Origin: Fibrobacter sp. | GTDB taxonomy: Bacteria > Fibrobacterota > Fibrobacteria > Fibrobacterales > Fibrobacteraceae | Length of the DNA: 64,000 bases | Reading direction: 5' to 3' | NCBI GenBank assembly: GCA_024399015.1 | Contig: JAKSIC010000001.1 | Span: 1-64,000 of the forward strand | Part shown: piece by piece, positions 6,906-53,597 of the stretch | Position numbering within the stretch: position 1 is the first letter of the stretch | Layout: every line of letters begins with the position of its first letter | The notes under the pieces: model-generated | What the model was told of the DNA's origin: nothing | The model's database searches: none | The model's input: only the letters and a program-made list of their open reading frames with translations | Made by a program: the position numbers and the translations under genes

Positions 6906-7315
6906 GGGCTCTTATTGACACCAACGTCCTAATGGATTACGTTGTAAAACGTGAACCGTATTTCGCATTTGCAAGGTCTATTGTTGATGCGAGAAGGCAG
7001 AATGTCTTCGATGGCTGTGTCGCAGCCCATTCTTTCACAAACATGTTCTACATTCTCCGCAAGGTTTACGATGACGCCACAAGAAGGGCTGTTCTCTTAA
7101 ATCTTACAGAGCTTTTTGATGTCGGAGATGTAAATAAGAATGTTATCGTGAGAGCTTTGGAGTATCAAAATTTTCCAGACTTTGAAGATTGTGTTCAAAG
7201 CGAAGTTGCTGAAAAATATCGAGCAGACTACATTGTTACTAGAAACCCGAAGGATTTTGAAAATTCCAGGATTCCTTGCATTTCTCCTGAAGATTTCATT
7301 AAACTGTTGAAATAG
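6902..7315 (+). CDS. PIN-domain ribonuclease toxin (VapC-like)
   Basis: The 137 aa product begins MRALIDTNVLMDYVV, where Asp6 in the IDTNVL motif is the first metal-binding acid of PIN-domain nucleases. Further conserved acids are in FPDFEDCVQ and in the C-terminal ADYIVTRNPKDF, which is the usual PIN ending. Proteins of this type cut tRNA or rRNA in the cytoplasm and are held inactive by the cognate antitoxin, here the overlapping upstream gene. A perfect-palindrome terminator follows immediately. The pair lies in the variable zone between carB copies, consistent with horizontal gain. Confidence 0.88.
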   Translation: MRALIDTNVLMDYVVKREPYFAFARSIVDARRQNVFDGCVAAHSFTNMFYILRKVYDDATRRAVLLNLTELFDVGDVNKNVIVRALEYQNFPDFEDCVQSEVAEKYRADYIVTRNPKDFENSRIPCISPEDFIKLLK

Positions 7316-7342
7316 AAAAATCCAGACGTCGTCTGGATTTTT
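7315..7342. terminator. Intrinsic terminator after the toxin gene
   Basis: AATCCAGAC and GTCTGGATT flank a 3-nt loop, with A-run before and T-run after, so it can stop transcription from either side. It begins right at the toxin stop codon. Confidence 0.85.
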
Positions 7343-7391
7343 GCGTTAGGTGCCGCAGCCCGTATGGGTTAGGACGCGAAGCGGCTGAACG

Positions 7392-7430
7392 AAAAAAGAC
7401 CGAACTGGATTTTTCCAGCTCGGTCTTTTT
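7392..7430. terminator. Bidirectional terminator between toxin gene and carB
   Basis: AAAAGACCGA-CTGGA pairs with TCCAG-TCGGTCTTTT, flanked by A and T runs. It can serve carB transcripts coming from the right and toxin read-through from the left. Confidence 0.8.
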
Positions 7431-7447
7431 ATAGCGCAAGGCACCGG

Positions 7448-7489
7448 CCCGGCCCACTTCGGCAAGCTCAGTGACCTTGGCCGGGCAAC
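7448..7489. repeat. GC-rich hairpin repeat downstream of carB
   Basis: Perfect 8-bp arms GCCCGGCC and GGCCGGGC enclose CACTTCGGCAAGCTCAGTGA, itself a common dispersed-repeat word. It lies 17 bp beyond the carB stop codon. Confidence 0.5.
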
Positions 7490-7505
7490 GCCCAGAAGAA
7501 GTTAA

Positions 7506-10500
7506 TTACACCTCTTCGATGCTTGCGTGATACTCTTGCAGAGACTTCACTTCGCCCTTACCAGCCTTAGCGGCGGCGATGCCCTTGACGGTGTCGAGAG
7601 CAGCAGCCAAAGTGGTGATGTAAGGAGTCTTGTACTTGATGGCAGCCTTACGGATGGCGCTTTCATCGGCAACAGCGTCGCGGCGAGCCCACGGGGTGTT
7701 GATGATGAGGTTCACCTGCTTGTTCAGGATGACATCCAGAACGTTCGGGCGGCCTTCGGCGATCTTGTTCACCACTTCGCACTTGACGCCAGCCTTTTCG
7801 TAGAACTTGGCGGTGCCTTCGGTTGCGTAGATCTTGAAGCCCAGATCCTGGAAACGCTGGCCCACTTCGATTGCCTGGTCGCAGAGGTTGGTCTTGTCAG
7901 ACAAGCTAATCAGCACGGCACCGGAAGACGGGAGGATAGAACCTGCGGCTTCCTGGCTCTTGTAGTAAGCCAGGGCGAAGTCTTCGGAGAGGCCCAGCAC
8001 TTCACCGGTGGAACGCATTTCAGGACCGAGAACCGGGTCAACCTTGGGGAACTTGTCAAACGGGAACACAGCTTCCTTGGCGCCGTGGTGCTTGAACTTC
8101 TTGTCCTTCAGCTTCAAATCTTCCAGCTTTTCACCCATCATGAGGCGGGTAGCAAGGCGGGCCATCTGAGTGTTACAGACCTTGGAGACCAGAGGCACGG
8201 TACGGGATGCGCGGGGGTTGGCTTCGAGAACGAAAACCTTGCCGTCTTCGATGGCATACTGCATGTTCATGAGACCACAAACGTGGAGGGATTCAGCAAT
8301 CTTACGAGTGTAATCCTTGATGGTCTTCAGGTTTGCTTCGGTAATGGTTACCGGCGGGATAATGCAGGCGGAGTCACCGGAGTGGACACCTGCAAGTTCC
8401 ACGTGTTCCATCACGGACGGAATGTAAACGTGTTCGCCATCAGAGAGGGCGTCGGCTTCGCATTCCAGAGCGTTGTGGAGGAAACGGTCGATGAGGAGCG
8501 GGCGATCCGGGGTAACGCCAACAGCCTTGGCAACGTATTCGCGGAGCATGTTTTCGTCGTAGATGACTTCCATGCCGCGGCCGCCAAGCACGAAGCTGGG
8601 GCGGATCATCACCGGGTAGCCACCGATCTGCTTGACGCAAGCGAGGGCTTCGTCGATGTTGGTAGCCATGCCGCTTTCGGGCATGGGGATTTCCAGCTGG
8701 TCCATCATCTTGCGGAACAGGTCGCGGTCTTCAGCGATATCGATGGAATCGATGCTGGTACCGAGAATCTTCACGCCTTCGTCGCTGAGTGCGCGAGCGA
8801 TGTTCAGCGGAATTTGGCCACCGAACTGCACGATAACGCCTGCGGGCTGTTCCTTCTTGTAAATCTGGAGAACGTCTTCGAGGGTAACCGGTTCGAAGTA
8901 CAGCTTGTCGCTGGTATCGTAGTCGGTAGAAACGGTTTCCGGGTTGCAGTTCACCATGATGGTTTCGTAACCCATTTCGCGGAGAGCCATTGCAGCGTGG
9001 CAGCAGCAGTAGTCGAATTCGATACCCTGGCCGATTCTGTTCGGGCCACCGCCGAGGATCATGATCTTCTTCGGGTTGTTGGTGGCGGTAGATTCGTCCT
9101 TGCAGTTGTAGGTAGAGTAGTAGTAGTACTGGTCCTTCACGCCGCTAACAGGCACTGCGCACCAGCCTTCAACCATGCCAAGTTCGATACGCTTTGCACG
9201 AACGTCCTTTTCGCGGATGCCGAGGATCTTTGCAATGTACTTATCGCCAAAGCCGTCCTTCTTGGCCTGGATCAGGAGTTCGTCAGAAGGCATACGACCC
9301 GGAGTCTTGAGCATCTTTTCTTCAAGTTCAACCAGTTCGCGCATCTGCTGCACGAAGTAAGCCTTTTCGTAAGTTGCTGCGAAAACTTCTTCGTCGGTTG
9401 CACCCTTACGGATGGCTTCGTACATCTGGAAGTGACGTTCAGAGGAAGCGGTCTTCATCATGTCGAGAAGTTCTTCCTTGGTCTTCTTGTTAAAGTCCTT
9501 AGCAAAGCCAAGACCTGCACGGCCATTTTCCAGACCGCGGATTGCCTTCTGGAGGGTTTCCTTATAGGTCTTACCGATAGCCATGACTTCGCCCACAGCC
9601 TTCATCTGGGTGCCGAGGCAATCGTCAACGCCGCGGAACTTTTCGAATGCCCAGCGAGCAAACTTCAGCACCACATAGTCGCCACTCGGGGTGTACTTTT
9701 CGAGGGTGCCGTCGCGCCAGTAGTCCATCTGGTCCAGAGTCATGCCAGCAGCGAGCTTTGCAGAAACGAGAGCGATGGGGAAACCGGTTGCCTTGGAAGC
9801 AAGAGCGGAGGAGCGAGAGGTACGGGGGTTGATTTCGATGATCACCACGCGGCCAGTCTTGGGGTCGTGTGCGAACTGAACGTTGGTACCGCCGATCACG
9901 CCGATAGCTTCAACAATCTTGAAAGCGTCGGTCTTCAGCTTTTCTTCGAGCTTCTTGTCGATGGTGAGGAACGGGGCTGCGCAGAAGGAGTCGCCAGTAT
10001 GAACGCCCACCGGGTCAATGTTTTCGATGAAGCAGATAGCAATCATCTGGTTCTTGGAGTCGCGAACCACTTCAACTTCCAGTTCTTCCCAACCGAGAAT
10101 GGATTCTTCGATGAGGCACTGGTGAGTCATGGAAAGTTCAAGACCGTTACCGCAAATGGTACGGAGTTCTTCGACGTTGTAGCAGAAGCCGCCACCTGCA
10201 CCACCCATGGTGTATGCCGGGCGAACCACCACCGGGTAGCCGATTTCAGCAACAATCTTTTCGGCTTCTTCAACAGAGTGGCAAATGCCGGAGCGCGGGG
10301 TGTCGATGCCCAGCTGCTGCATGGTAGCCTTGAAGATTTCACGGTCTTCGCCGCGTTCGATAGCGTCCAGGTTCACGCCAATGACCTTCACGCCGTACTT
10401 GTCCAGAATGCCAGCCTTGTTCAGGGCAGAAGACAGGTTCAAGCCAGTCTGACCGCCGAGGTTGGGGAGCAATGCCTGGGGACGTTCCTTGGCAATGATC

Positions 10501-10740: not shown

Positions 10741-10926
10741 TTAACAACTAAAAATCTCACGGTTTTCACCGCATACAAAAAGAGCTGAACCAAAAGGTTC
10801 AGCACTCATAAAATCAACAATCTTGGAAACAGAAAGGGAATGACAAGAAACAGAAGAAACACCAACAGCGGCGGTTCGCTTCGCAGCGCACTTTGCAATG
10901 TTTTGGGTCTTCAGAATTTTCATCAT
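10741..10926 (-). CDS. Possible leader ORF upstream of carB
   Basis: A 61-codon frame starts at tandem ATGs (10926, 10923) and stops 16 nt before the carB start codon. It is rich in Ser, Ala, Val and Lys. An intrinsic-terminator hairpin (10773-10803) lies inside its second half, so its translation would disturb the hairpin. That is the arrangement expected of a leader that controls carB by attenuation. The ribosome site is weak (GAG shortly before the ATG), and the peptide has no run of a regulatory amino acid, so it may instead be untranslated leader. Confidence 0.4.
   Translation of the reverse strand: MMKILKTQNIAKCAAKRTAAVGVSSVSCHSLSVSKIVDFMSAEPFGSALFVCGENREIFSC
10773..10803 (-). promoter_or_regulatory. 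Attenuator-like terminator in the carB leader
   Basis: On the minus strand GCTGAACC-TTTT-GGTTCAGC is followed by CTCTTTTTG, a standard intrinsic terminator, about 50 nt before the carB start codon and downstream of the only promoter-like sequence. carB transcripts must read through it, so conditional termination is likely. I could not find a clear alternative antiterminator pairing by eye. Confidence 0.6.
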
Positions 10927-10961
10927 CTCTAACTAAAATTCACAAGGTTTAAACTTGTGCA

Positions 10962-10990
10962 AATATAGTTAGAAATGTAAAACTCATCAA
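10962..10990 (-). promoter_or_regulatory. Promoter-like sequence for the carB leader
   Basis: On the minus strand TTGATG (-35-like, 10985-10990), exactly 17 nt, and TATATT (-10-like, 10962-10967) are found about 36 nt before the leader ORF. Confidence 0.6.
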
Positions 10991-11014
10991 CACTTTTTAA
11001 CAAAAAATGTAATA

Positions 11015-11194
11015 CTACTCGTCATCAGAATCATCGACAATGAAATCGTCCATTCCAGGATCCTGCTTATCCTTGCAAATTGTAGACGTAATATCGTCAA
11101 TGCAGTCGTCCTTTGCAGCTCCCTTACCACTGCAAGCAGTAAACCCGGCAATAAGAGCCAGCAACAAGAACATACCCAAGAATTTCTTCTTCAT
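11015..11194 (-). CDS. Small acidic lipoprotein
   Basis: This 59 aa gene starts at an ATG 6 nt after AAGGAG. It opens with MKKKFLGMFLLLALIAGFTAC, a textbook lipoprotein signal with lipobox FTAC (Cys21). The mature peptide is only 39 residues, has two further Cys residues, and ends in a strongly acidic tail (DDFIVDDSDDE). It lies between the HU gene and the carB leader on the same strand. Small lipoproteins of this type are anchored in the inner or outer membrane; no function can be assigned. Confidence 0.8.
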   Translation of the reverse strand: MKKKFLGMFLLLALIAGFTACSGKGAAKDDCIDDITSTICKDKQDPGMDDFIVDDSDDE

Positions 11195-11289
11195 AAGTTT
11201 CTCCTTCTTTAGAACTTATTGATACACAACGACTTATATACAAAAATTTCAATTTCCCGTCAAATTCGGGAAAACACAAGACTTCCTCT

Positions 11290-11740: not shown

Positions 11741-11858
11741 TTTATAACTCCTTGAGTTGGTTTTAAGAAATTTATGACTTTATTATACTTTTTTTTTGAT
11801 TAATAAGTTCGCGACTTCCAAAAAAAGATGCAAAAAAAATGACACAATCGCAGTAAAA

Positions 11859-12986
11859 TCAAGCCTCGGGGCTAGGTTCGCCCTCTTCTTCCGCTATAGC
11901 GTCAGCCTTTTTCTGAATCTTTTCCAAGTAAACTAAGCATATGCAGGTGAACGGGATTGCAACAATCAGGCCCAGGAAGCCAAGAAGTTTTCCCCAGATG
12001 GAAAGAGAAAGCAAGATGCCTACCGGAGGCAAATCCATTGAGGAGCCAACGATTTTCGGGACAAGGAAAAAGTCCTGGATGACCTGAACAAGTCCATAAA
12101 TCGCAAGAACAATTACTGCCACTTCCCAGAAAGGCATTGCAGTATCCAAGGCATAAACCACCGCCAACAGCAAGGCCAAAGGAATAGTCGTCAACTGCAA
12201 ATAAGGAATCATATTCAACGCTCCGGAGAACAAACCAAAGGCGACTCCCATAGGCAGTCCAATGATTCCAAAGCCAATCGCATAAAGGACACCCACAGTC
12301 AGCGCCACCAAAGACTGAGCGCGGAAGTAGCTTCCCATGAAGCGATCAACTTCCTTACCAAAGCTTGCTGCATCAATTCTAAACTTTCTCGGAACCAAGC
12401 TTTTAGCGCCACGGCGAAGCTTCGGCATGTCCAACATAATGAAAACAAGATACATGAAAATCAAAGCCGCACCAGACAACCACGCAATCAAGTGCGACGT
12501 CTTAGACAACAAGCCCCAAGCACCAGGCAACACACGATCCGCCACAGATTGCACAGACTGCCAGAAGTCAAGACTGCGCATAGACTTCGCAACCTGGTCC
12601 CAAGAAATCATTCCCTTCACAGACTGCCACAGGTCTTCCGGCACAAACACAGAAATTCGAGAAACCCAAGTGGAATCGCTGAACATCTTCGGGATAAGTT
12701 CACCCAAGTGGCGGACTTCATTCACCACCATAGGAACAAACACGTAGCCAGCCCCAGCAACAATCAAAGCCAAAGCGACAATCACCAGGATAACTGCAAT
12801 AATGCGATGTTTCAATTTGTCTTGAAGTTTGCAAACCACCGGGTCCAAAATGTAGGCCAGCAGGAATGCTGCAAAGAACGGAAAAAGAACTCCGCTCAAA
12901 TAGTTCAGCACCCAAAGCATGGCTCCAATACCAAGAACCACAATAAGGTTACGCATAATTCTATCAATAGTCCATGCGCGTCTCAT
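11859..12986 (-). CDS. AI-2E/PerM-family membrane permease
   Basis: The 375 aa product has about seven to eight hydrophobic segments and the family's typical signatures: an N-terminal pair of helices (NLIVVLGIGAMLWVL, VLFPFFAAFLLAYILDPVV), the motif near GALNMIPYLQLTTIPLALLLAV and the C-terminal QDFFLVPKIVGSSMDLPP. Family members include the autoinducer-2 exporter TqsA, but most have unknown substrates, so no transport role is claimed. I chose the ATG at 12986, which overlaps the previous gene's stop (TGATG) and has AAGGAG 6 nt upstream; a longer frame starting at 13022 is less likely. It is the last gene of a minus-strand operon with two membrane-anchored paralogues. Confidence 0.88.
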   Translation of the reverse strand: MRRAWTIDRIMRNLIVVLGIGAMLWVLNYLSGVLFPFFAAFLLAYILDPVVCKLQDKLKHRIIAVILVIVALALIVAGAGYVFVPMVVNEVRHLGELIPKMFSDSTWVSRISVFVPEDLWQSVKGMISWDQVAKSMRSLDFWQSVQSVADRVLPGAWGLLSKTSHLIAWLSGAALIFMYLVFIMLDMPKLRRGAKSLVPRKFRIDAASFGKEVDRFMGSYFRAQSLVALTVGVLYAIGFGIIGLPMGVAFGLFSGALNMIPYLQLTTIPLALLLAVVYALDTAMPFWEVAVIVLAIYGLVQVIQDFFLVPKIVGSSMDLPPVGILLSLSIWGKLLGFLGLIVAIPFTCICLVYLEKIQKKADAIAEEEGEPSPEA

Positions 12987-48961: not shown

Positions 48962-49852
48962 ATGAATTTACCTCACGATCCCTTCTGCAGGGGAGTGTTA
49001 GCGGATGTCCCGACTTTTCTGGAGTTTATCCGCTACCTTACCACAAAGGATGCAGAACTAAACGACCTCTTCAACCTGCTGGACCAAGCATCATTCAGAC
49101 GCATGCCCGGCGATTATAGCGACACCGAAAGCAAAGGGTACGCCGACCTGGCGTTTCTTGCAAACGTAAAGCAGGATTTTCAGGAAGACTGTTCCGAGCC
49201 CGTACAGTTCGTCGGTTTCCTTGTGGAGCACAAGTCCGCACGGGACAACAATGTTCTGGAACAGCTTCGCCGCTACAACTTTCACCTCATGGTGCAAAAG
49301 CTGAAGGACAATGTTTTTAGGGGAATTCCCTCCATCGCCATCATCCTGTACAACGGTAAGGAAAACTGGGATCCGCTTAAGGAACTGTACGCCAATAAGC
49401 CCAAGAAACTTCAGCGGCTCATGCTCCCGTTCCAGTGCATTATGCTGGATGTGAACAATGTCTCCGACGAGGAACTGGGCGGTTTCAACGCGCGCCTCGC
49501 GGCATTCATCGGTTCGCTTAAATACGTTCGTGATCCCGAAAGCAAAAGGGATTTGTTCAAGAGGATTATCGAACGAGTTCTCGAAGAACTTCCAAAACAG
49601 GAAGCCCTTGACTTATTGCATCAGATGGATGTATATTTACATGGTTGGCTTAGAAAAATTTTCATGGAGGCATACAAGATGGATTTCGTTCGTCCGAACT
49701 ACAAGACTATCGCTGACGGTTTCTATGAAGAAGGCGAAAAGCGACGAGCCGAAGAAACCGCCCGCCGAATGCTAGCCCAAAATGAACCTATGGAAAAAAT
49801 CGTCTCATACACAGACCTTTCCAAGGAACAGATCGAAGCACTCAAGAAATAA
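48962..49852 (+). CDS. Rpn-family recombination-promoting nuclease / putative transposase
   Basis: 296 aa. The N-terminal half has the PD-(D/E)xK core: KGYADLAFLANV and VGFLVEHKSARD (the E-x-K), followed by the conserved LLxLLHQMD-type region EALDLLHQMDVYLHG. Rpn proteins raise RecA-independent recombination in E. coli and are spread across mobile regions. The helical Lys/Glu-rich tail is typical. AGGATAAAA precedes the ATG. A remnant of a second copy lies on the opposite strand just upstream. A terminator follows. Confidence 0.82.
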   Translation: MNLPHDPFCRGVLADVPTFLEFIRYLTTKDAELNDLFNLLDQASFRRMPGDYSDTESKGYADLAFLANVKQDFQEDCSEPVQFVGFLVEHKSARDNNVLEQLRRYNFHLMVQKLKDNVFRGIPSIAIILYNGKENWDPLKELYANKPKKLQRLMLPFQCIMLDVNNVSDEELGGFNARLAAFIGSLKYVRDPESKRDLFKRIIERVLEELPKQEALDLLHQMDVYLHGWLRKIFMEAYKMDFVRPNYKTIADGFYEEGEKRRAEETARRMLAQNEPMEKIVSYTDLSKEQIEALKK

Positions 49853-52820: not shown

Positions 52821-52967
52821 TTTCAAAGGAGGGTGAGGGATGGGACTACTCCTTCACTTCGTTTCAGTCGTAGCCTTTCAGGTTCGGTGCCTTGCACCGA
52901 ATCCTTAACTGCGCTGAGTTCGCTTCGCTCTCGCGCAGCTAAGCGAACCCTCTTATTCGAGGGTTCG
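52821..52967 (-). pseudogene. tRNA-Ser 3' end copy with three-hairpin insert (copy A)
   Basis: TTTCAAAGGAGGGTGAGGGAT at 52821-52841 exactly repeats 53017-53037, which is the 3' end of the intact tRNA-Ser plus trailer. The T-arm is split: after GAGGGAT about 100 nt of hairpin sequence (52842-52943) intervene before CGAACCCTC (52944), which is mirrored as GAGGGTTCG by 52967. The tRNA body beyond the T-arm is missing, so it cannot be a working tRNA. Confidence 0.7.
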
Positions 52968-52982
52968 ATCTCCCGAGCCCGT

Positions 52983-53017
52983 GAAAACAAAAAGGCGCCC
53001 AAAGGCGCCTTTTCGTT
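52983..53017 (-). terminator. Terminator of tRNA-Ser (CGA)
   Basis: AAAGGCGCC and GGCGCCTTTTT pair, followed by a T-run on the minus strand, just after the tRNA. Confidence 0.85.
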
Positions 53018-53023
53018 TTCAAA

Positions 53024-53107
53024 GGAGGGTGAGGGATTCGAACCCTCGGTCCTGTGACAGACTCCGGATTTCGAGACCGGCCCAATCGACCACTCTGGCA
53101 ACCCTCC
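53024..53107 (-). tRNA. tRNA-Ser (CGA)
   Basis: The 84-nt cloverleaf has acceptor GGAGGGT/ACCCTCC, D-arm with AGAGTGGTCGATTGG, anticodon loop CTCGAAA (CGA, reading UCG), a long variable arm GTCTGTCACAGGAC and T-arm GAGGG-TTCGAAT-CCCTC, all as expected for a class II tRNA-Ser. It is the only intact copy in this cluster. Its discriminator base appears to be U. Confidence 0.93.
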
Positions 53108-53180
53108 GAGTTTGACCCAATTTAGTATAATATTCTCTGATTGTCTATTTATCCAATCTCTTTTCGCAGCTTTGCTGCGA
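53108..53180 (-). promoter_or_regulatory. Upstream region of tRNA-Ser, duplicated
   Basis: On the minus strand TAGACAATCAGAGAATATTATACTAAATT lies about 15-40 nt before the tRNA 5' end and may be its promoter (TATTAT or TATACT as -10). The same sequence recurs at 53364-53436. Between it and the preceding copy is a CGCAGC/GCTGCG hairpin. Confidence 0.5.
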
Positions 53181-53363
53181 GGAGGGGGAGGGATTGACAA
53201 AGGACTCATTTCTTTTCGCCCTTTGCCCTTCGGGTCCGGCCCTTGGCCGGATCTCAAAACTTGCATGTTCGCCTTCGGCTCTCGCAAGTTTTGGCGAACC
53301 CTCGGTCCTGTGATAGACGACCGATTTTGTGGCCGGCCCAATCGACCACTCTGGCAACCCTCC
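53181..53363 (-). pseudogene. tRNA-Ser-like copy C, T-loop interrupted
   Basis: Its 5' half (53295-53363) matches the intact tRNA-Ser at the acceptor, D-arm, variable arm and T-stem start, but the anticodon arm is changed to one lacking U33 and with three mismatches in the stem. The 3' half (53181-53195) is separated by about 99 nt inserted exactly inside the T-loop, between TTCG and AAT. The acceptor also has a mismatch at pair 7. It cannot work as a tRNA unless processed in an unknown way. Confidence 0.75.
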
Positions 53364-53436
53364 GAGTTTGACCCAATTTAGTATAATATTCTCTGATTGT
53401 CTATTTATCCAATCTCTTTTCGCAGCTTTGCTGCGA

Positions 53437-53597
53437 GGAGGGGGAGGGATTGACAAAGGACTCATTTCTTTTCGCCCTTTGCCCTTCGGGTCCGGCCCTT
53501 GGCCGGATCTCAAAACTTGCATGTTCGCCTTCGGCTCTCGCAAGTTTTGGCGAACCCTCGGTCCTGTGATAGACGACCGATTTTGTGGCCGGCCCAA
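53437..53597 (-). pseudogene. tRNA-Ser-like copy D, T-loop interrupted and 5' truncated
   Basis: This is a base-for-base copy of copy C at an offset of exactly 256 bp, including upstream sequence and insert. It stops at CGGCCCAA (53597), where the next lipoprotein gene's 3' end region begins, so the first 25 or so tRNA positions are lost. Confidence 0.75.

Follow-up and report, generated by a model that had tools for sequence, protein, structure and literature searches.

The window analysed here, a 64,000-nt stretch that opens contig JAKSIC010000001.1 of a Fibrobacter assembly (GCA_024399015.1), carries on its minus strand an intact tRNA-Ser(CGA) gene accompanied by three interrupted relatives (Table 1). 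In minus-strand order, copies D and C lie upstream of the intact gene and copy A lies downstream of it, past a terminator-like hairpin. As held by the original prediction, which was made from this sequence alone, all three are split at one T-loop position by inserts of about 100 nt, which measure 99–102 nt and begin after TTCG. The accompanying description of three damaged copies needs qualification, since C and D represent a single event duplicated with a 256-bp unit, and A consists of a tRNA 3′ half only. The insert of C enters after TTCG57 and the tRNA then resumes with AATCCCTC, while the insert of A occupies the same point with a different sequence (102 nt, compared with 99 nt in C and D). 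The replacement of the tRNA 5′ half by an inverted T-arm hairpin (H0), as in copy A, recurs in most relatives. A decoding role for copy C was rejected because its anticodon arm is altered and pairs abnormally, and C and D are thus unlikely to decode. The same alteration, with ATCGGTCGTC replacing ATCCGGAGTC, is seen in full-length split tRNA-Ser copies of several genomes, both in the window (53363-53181) and at loci L008, L011, L049, and L056.

Table 1. Features of the tRNA-Ser(CGA) locus, in window coordinates.
Feature	Position	Strand	Basis
Intact tRNA-Ser(CGA)	53023..53107	-	ARAGORN; Rfam RF00005, 53 bits
Terminator-like hairpin 3′ of the intact tRNA, between it and copy A	52982..53021	-	Inverted repeat I2, 18 nt, 94%
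Copy A: cassette-split T-loop in a tRNA-Ser reduced to its 3′ half (T-arm, acceptor 3′ strand)	52828..52967	-	Sequence; R1 match 52835-52952, 122.3 bits
Type-I hairpin cassette of copy A, 102 nt: H1, P2(H2, H3 CCT-GAA-AGG, H4)	52842..52943	-	Sequence, covariance model, folding
H0, inverted T-arm hairpin CGAACCCTC-GAATAA-GAGGGTTCG in place of the tRNA 5′ half in A	52944..52967	-	Sequence
Copy C: full-length tRNA-Ser body, anticodon arm altered, T-loop split by a cassette	53181..53363	-	Sequence; R1 match 53188-53303, 98.6 bits
Type-I hairpin cassette of copy C, 99 nt	53196..53294	-	Sequence, covariance model
Copy D: tandem duplicate of C, 5′-truncated	53437..53597	-	256-nt direct repeat; R1 match 53444-53559, 98.6 bits
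Type-I hairpin cassette of copy D, 99 nt, identical to that of C	53452..53550	-	Direct repeat, covariance model
Two 256-bp tandem units, 97% alike: tRNA upstream region and split tRNA	53039..53550	-	Repeat family D1

Two DNA queries, the insert of A and one from a related genome, retrieved homologues across the genus, 34 of which served to build a covariance model (R1) comprising the T-stem, H1 (whose loop contains a mini-hairpin), P2, H2, H3, and H4. The fixed order of hairpins proposed for A and C was recovered, with four hairpins and an inner closing helix (P2) instead of the three hairpins first described. The window inserts fold better than 200 of 200 shuffled sequences on either strand (z −4.1 to −4.9), and the R1 scores of A (122.3 bits) and of C and D (98.6 bits) are far above chance for a model whose 34 training rows are mostly homologues from other genomes and include A and C. 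Across the 34-row alignment, 93.9% of cells are paired and the covariation score reaches 0.496, compared with 0.166 for shuffled alignments and at most 0.103 for slid partners, with double changes at 27 pairs. The compensating changes quoted between A and C proved correct, and pairing is kept across 34–114 distinct homologues. Pairing of the T-loop TTCG with the CGAAC of the H1 loop, as a pseudoknot, was rejected as unconserved, being absent from the Pro-linked copies.

The inserts of the window are members of a hitherto undescribed family of structured non-coding elements. R1 matches were detected in 57 of 61 Fibrobacter genomes, including all 29 near-complete ones, mostly at 2–11 copies per genome, and in a wider sample of the phylum they were confined to the family Fibrobacteraceae; all 17 exact-pattern matches in the GTDB collection came from Fibrobacter or Fibrobacterales. 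At the locus, tRNA was the sole Rfam family over the cut-off and the cassettes themselves had no match, so that group I introns were rejected, in line with the original prediction, as were group II introns and other Rfam RNAs. No viral contig carried the conserved H3-H4 pattern, and matches in phages and plasmids reached no further than the intact tRNA, with no relative of the cassettes; viral carriage was rejected on these grounds. Our literature search found no paper on elements like these.

The expectation that further copies would sit in T-loops was borne out at tRNA-Ser(CGA), Pro(CGG), and Pro(TGG): the 141 R1 matches, from 84 partly overlapping sources, adjoin one of these three genes, mostly immediately downstream. 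The insertion point, TTCGA^AT in the T-loop, is identical across the three tRNA species, and the outer stem of each cassette is the T-stem of the local tRNA (GAGGG/CCCTC, GTGAG/CTCGC, or GTCAG/CTGGC), followed by its acceptor 3′ strand. At the insert ends, TTCGA stands on the left and AT alone on the right, with no TTCGAAT duplicated at both ends. Copies of the tRNA 3′ 14-mer were found downstream of the Ser and Pro host tRNAs and not of tRNA-Lys, the count at tRNA-Glu reflecting a tandem tRNA-Glu gene. Both Pro loci of the window’s own genome are occupied too, by other cassette types. Several arrangements occur alongside the T-loop inserts, including tRNA-Pro(TGG) copies whose anticodon arm or its vicinity holds an additional insert rich in hairpins (L064, L137, L112), downstream arrays of shorter units formed of one hairpin and a tRNA 3′ end (e.g., CATCCCTCTCTCTCC and CAATCTGGCTACCCC; L018, L020, L040, L046, L174, L175), and long palindromes centred on the terminator loop, in which the tRNA 3′ half, terminator, and inverted T-arm are joined (e.g., L173, L163, L053).

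A second cassette type (type II), with the core GAGYGTCGCG-H2-CATGACCGA and a closing hairpin GACGCC..GGCGTC, occupies the same T-loop site at many Pro(CGG) loci, including that of the window’s own genome. Two different cassettes may also share one T-loop, in four distinct pairings with exact joints. A type-I b unit (CTACCG...TTGGCA) is directly followed by a type-I a unit (CTGAATC...GTCTT or GTCTC) in genomes G016 and G084, with a joint of the same kind in G022, and by a type II unit ending in GGCGTCC in G033; type II ending in GGCGTCA precedes a type-I a unit (CTAAAT...GTCTT/A) at three loci (L132, L180, L192), and G003 carries a two-type stack at Pro(TGG). Cassette ends recur whether a unit stands first, last, inside a stack, or singly, which defines exact unit borders. 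These exact-jointed stacks are our main evidence and suggest modular, site-specific insertion, as deduced from anatomy rather than from observed movement; no clean pair of empty and filled slots was found among close relatives.

Type II hairpins were also seen in other settings. Three tandem type-II-like units (~93 bp) lie directly behind the typA stop codon at L054 (G062:C11), outside any tRNA. A partial thrS copy lacking the catalytic part (G000:C9:57327; L150, L156 ~7136-7678) has a type II hairpin insert at its junction, with a second thrS tail nearby, and 3′-end fragments of carB (L157, G098:C1:690000-705000, at 8009-8489, 10882-11259, and 11806-12058; L151) contain hairpin inserts at differing points, near apparent insertion-sequence genes. 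Given these occurrences, tRNAs may not be the only carriers of the slot.

Cassettes are mostly inherited in place, and local tandem duplication is common. In a tree of 116 inserts, which rests on about 100 columns and has poorly resolved deep branches, grouping is mostly by host tRNA: 10 host changes are needed, where at least 3 would be required and shuffled labels need 53.9. Transfer between tRNA loci has thus occurred, if rarely, and related cassettes are occasionally found at different tRNA loci. Window copies A and C belong to separate Ser clades, each with partners from other genomes. The proposal of site-specific miniature elements is partly supported, by the shared T-loop point in three tRNA genes and by the mixed stacks, which suggest site-specific insertion, but not in the sense of freely jumping elements, as most are inherited in place.

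The suggested link to T-loop integrases found no support: across 32 element loci in 12 genomes, no integrase was located within 79 kb on the same contig, the nearest lying at least 79 kb away, and a linked island integrase was accordingly rejected. Among the genes tested near the window locus there was no recombinase of known type, the neighbours including a YhgA-like protein, transporter genes, and a PfkB kinase. The YhgA-like protein (PF04754, Transposase_31; window 48962-49852) is encoded about 3 kb from the array. Tyrosine recombinases are present in all genomes examined, and none of the 61 genomes has an integron integrase (TIGR02249) over the cut-off, below which only general tyrosine recombinases appear. 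Y1 transposases are patchy in the genus (6 of 21 genomes) and none was detected in the window’s genome, for which reason mobility through a Y1 transposase of the same genome was rejected.

Whether the hairpins are maintained as RNA or as single-stranded DNA had been left undecided by the original prediction. Compensating changes do conserve the structure, and the scarcity of G.U pairs argues for the DNA level. Among 114 distinct elements, T-stem excluded, 3714 cells are Watson–Crick, 32 G.T, 19 A.C, and 163 other. G.U accounts for 1.3% of cells in the 34-row set and for 10.5% in RNase P RNA from 24 Fibrobacter genomes, where pairs were taken from alifold; when the insert was redone with alifold, the values in variable pairs were 1.6% and 12.9%, respectively. 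Covarying pairs with any G.U number 6 of 25 in the cassette vs 16 of 22 in RNase P RNA, and double changes unable to pass through a G.U intermediate 129 of 250 vs 34 of 110. H3 is capped by a GNA triloop with a free middle base in 110 of the 114 elements. GNA triloops form extraordinarily stable DNA mini-hairpins, and mini-hairpin DNA is used in aptamers for its stability. Taken together, the nearly exclusive Watson–Crick helices and the GNA-capped H3 point less to an ordinary RNA than to hairpins that are maintained in single-stranded DNA or through template-switch repair. In H1 and H4, conservation is stronger in the loop than in the stem (0.5–0.6 vs 1.05–1.22 bits), which argues against a purely neutral process.

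Our preferred explanation, to which we give a probability of roughly 45%, is that the inserts are non-autonomous, non-coding cassettes that fold as single-stranded DNA and occupy the T-loop slot of surplus tRNA copies or 3′ halves beside three essential tRNA genes of Fibrobacteraceae. An enzyme encoded elsewhere would insert the folded single-stranded cassettes site-specifically into the slot, and they would persist only in surplus copies because insertion into an intact gene would be lethal. Their hairpins may be maintained as DNA through recognition of the conserved loops, through template-switch correction at replication, or both. Against this explanation, elements with a conserved function could likewise be inherited mostly vertically and occur in every good genome. 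A reading that is possible but which we regard as doubtful goes further, viewing the surplus tRNA copies as bearers of a dedicated T-loop slot into which a putative recombinase inserts and stacks several families of folded single-stranded cassettes, i.e., a gene-free integron on a tRNA platform.

Alternatively, a transcript of the tRNA 3′ half and cassette, released along with the tRNA, could fold into a structured RNA with a trans-acting or tRNA-mimicking role; the rtT RNA of E. coli, made from tRNA-3′-end repeats behind tyrT, would be a parallel. Such a role would be consistent with the constant position of cassettes beside a tRNA and before terminator-like hairpins, the conservation throughout the genus and beyond, the strong covariation, the tRNA upstream region retained by C and D, and the closure of the fold by the T-stem. 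We nevertheless consider it unlikely, as G.U pairs are nearly absent, unlike in RNase P RNA, the intact tRNA is separated from most copies by a terminator-like hairpin, Rfam holds no match, and the slot is occupied now by one cassette type, now by another.

Quite improbable, in our view, is that the hairpins are functionless by-products perfected by template switching, with tRNA 3′ ends and terminators forming palindromes that are copied back at replication. Template switching has been proposed both to create and to maintain RNA hairpins (PMC8794818). In its favour are the long palindromes built from tRNA 3′ half, terminator, and inverted T-arm, as well as stem sides that change together, about half of the double changes being closed to a G.U step. 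Template switching accounts poorly for the stronger conservation of loops than of stems in H1 and H4, for a fixed four-hairpin order with GNA loops across a genus, for exact cassette joints, and for the restriction to three tRNA loci. Finally, the cassettes are very unlikely to be scars of tRNA-targeting islands, the idea being that every integration by a tyrosine integrase adds a tRNA 3′ end and that a conserved terminus of the islands supplies the hairpins. Integrases of this kind are known to cross over in the T-loop, and tRNA 3′ ends are repeated downstream of the host tRNAs but not of tRNA-Lys, yet the 7-bp TTCGAAT is not duplicated at both ends, no integrase or island genes adjoin the loci, and viral contigs, phages, and plasmids match nothing beyond the intact tRNA.

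This large, sharply structured family, which occurs in every near-complete Fibrobacter genome sampled, was matched by nothing in Rfam and by no phage, plasmid, or viral contig. With it, two questions can be put to the test. One is how a tRNA loop can turn into an insertion slot when no integrase is linked to it. The other, which bears on every covariation-based RNA prediction, is whether strong covariation that lacks G.U should be read as a sign of hairpins at the DNA level, or of template-switch correction, and not of a functional RNA.

Several known systems share features with these cassettes. The attachment sites of tyrosine integrases in tRNA T-loops have the same target and likewise come with tRNA 3′ ends repeated downstream, whereas the cassettes have no core duplicated at both ends and no linked integrase. 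The rtT RNA/tyrT repeats of E. coli (RF00391) form a tandem array downstream of a tRNA gene, whose 3′ end every unit repeats; the rtT model gave 15.9 bits (E 3.7) against a cut-off of 45, and we know of no T-loop slot or cassette exchange in these repeats. The palindromic elements derived from IS200/IS605 and the REP/BIME sequences, associated with Y1 transposases and RAYTs, are also short, non-coding, hairpin-rich, and non-autonomous, with stable mini-hairpin loops of the GCGAAGC type and array formation, and the conserved hairpins with conserved loops that characterize the IS200/IS605 and REP-RAYT systems are found in the cassettes as well. The cassettes differ from them in their single exact tRNA T-loop slot, their fixed order of four hairpins within ~100 nt, and the lack of a Y1 transposase in the window’s genome. 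Integron identity was rejected, since no IntI exceeded the cut-off and attC boxes (R″ RYYYAAC, R′ GTTRRRY) occur in 3 of 114 elements (shuffled mean 0.3) and are not a family feature. T-loop cassettes differ from integron cassettes in being gene-free and in residing in genomes without an integron integrase over the cut-off. The resemblance lies in modularity, in exactly joined stacking at a single site, and in folded single-stranded DNA as a plausible substrate.
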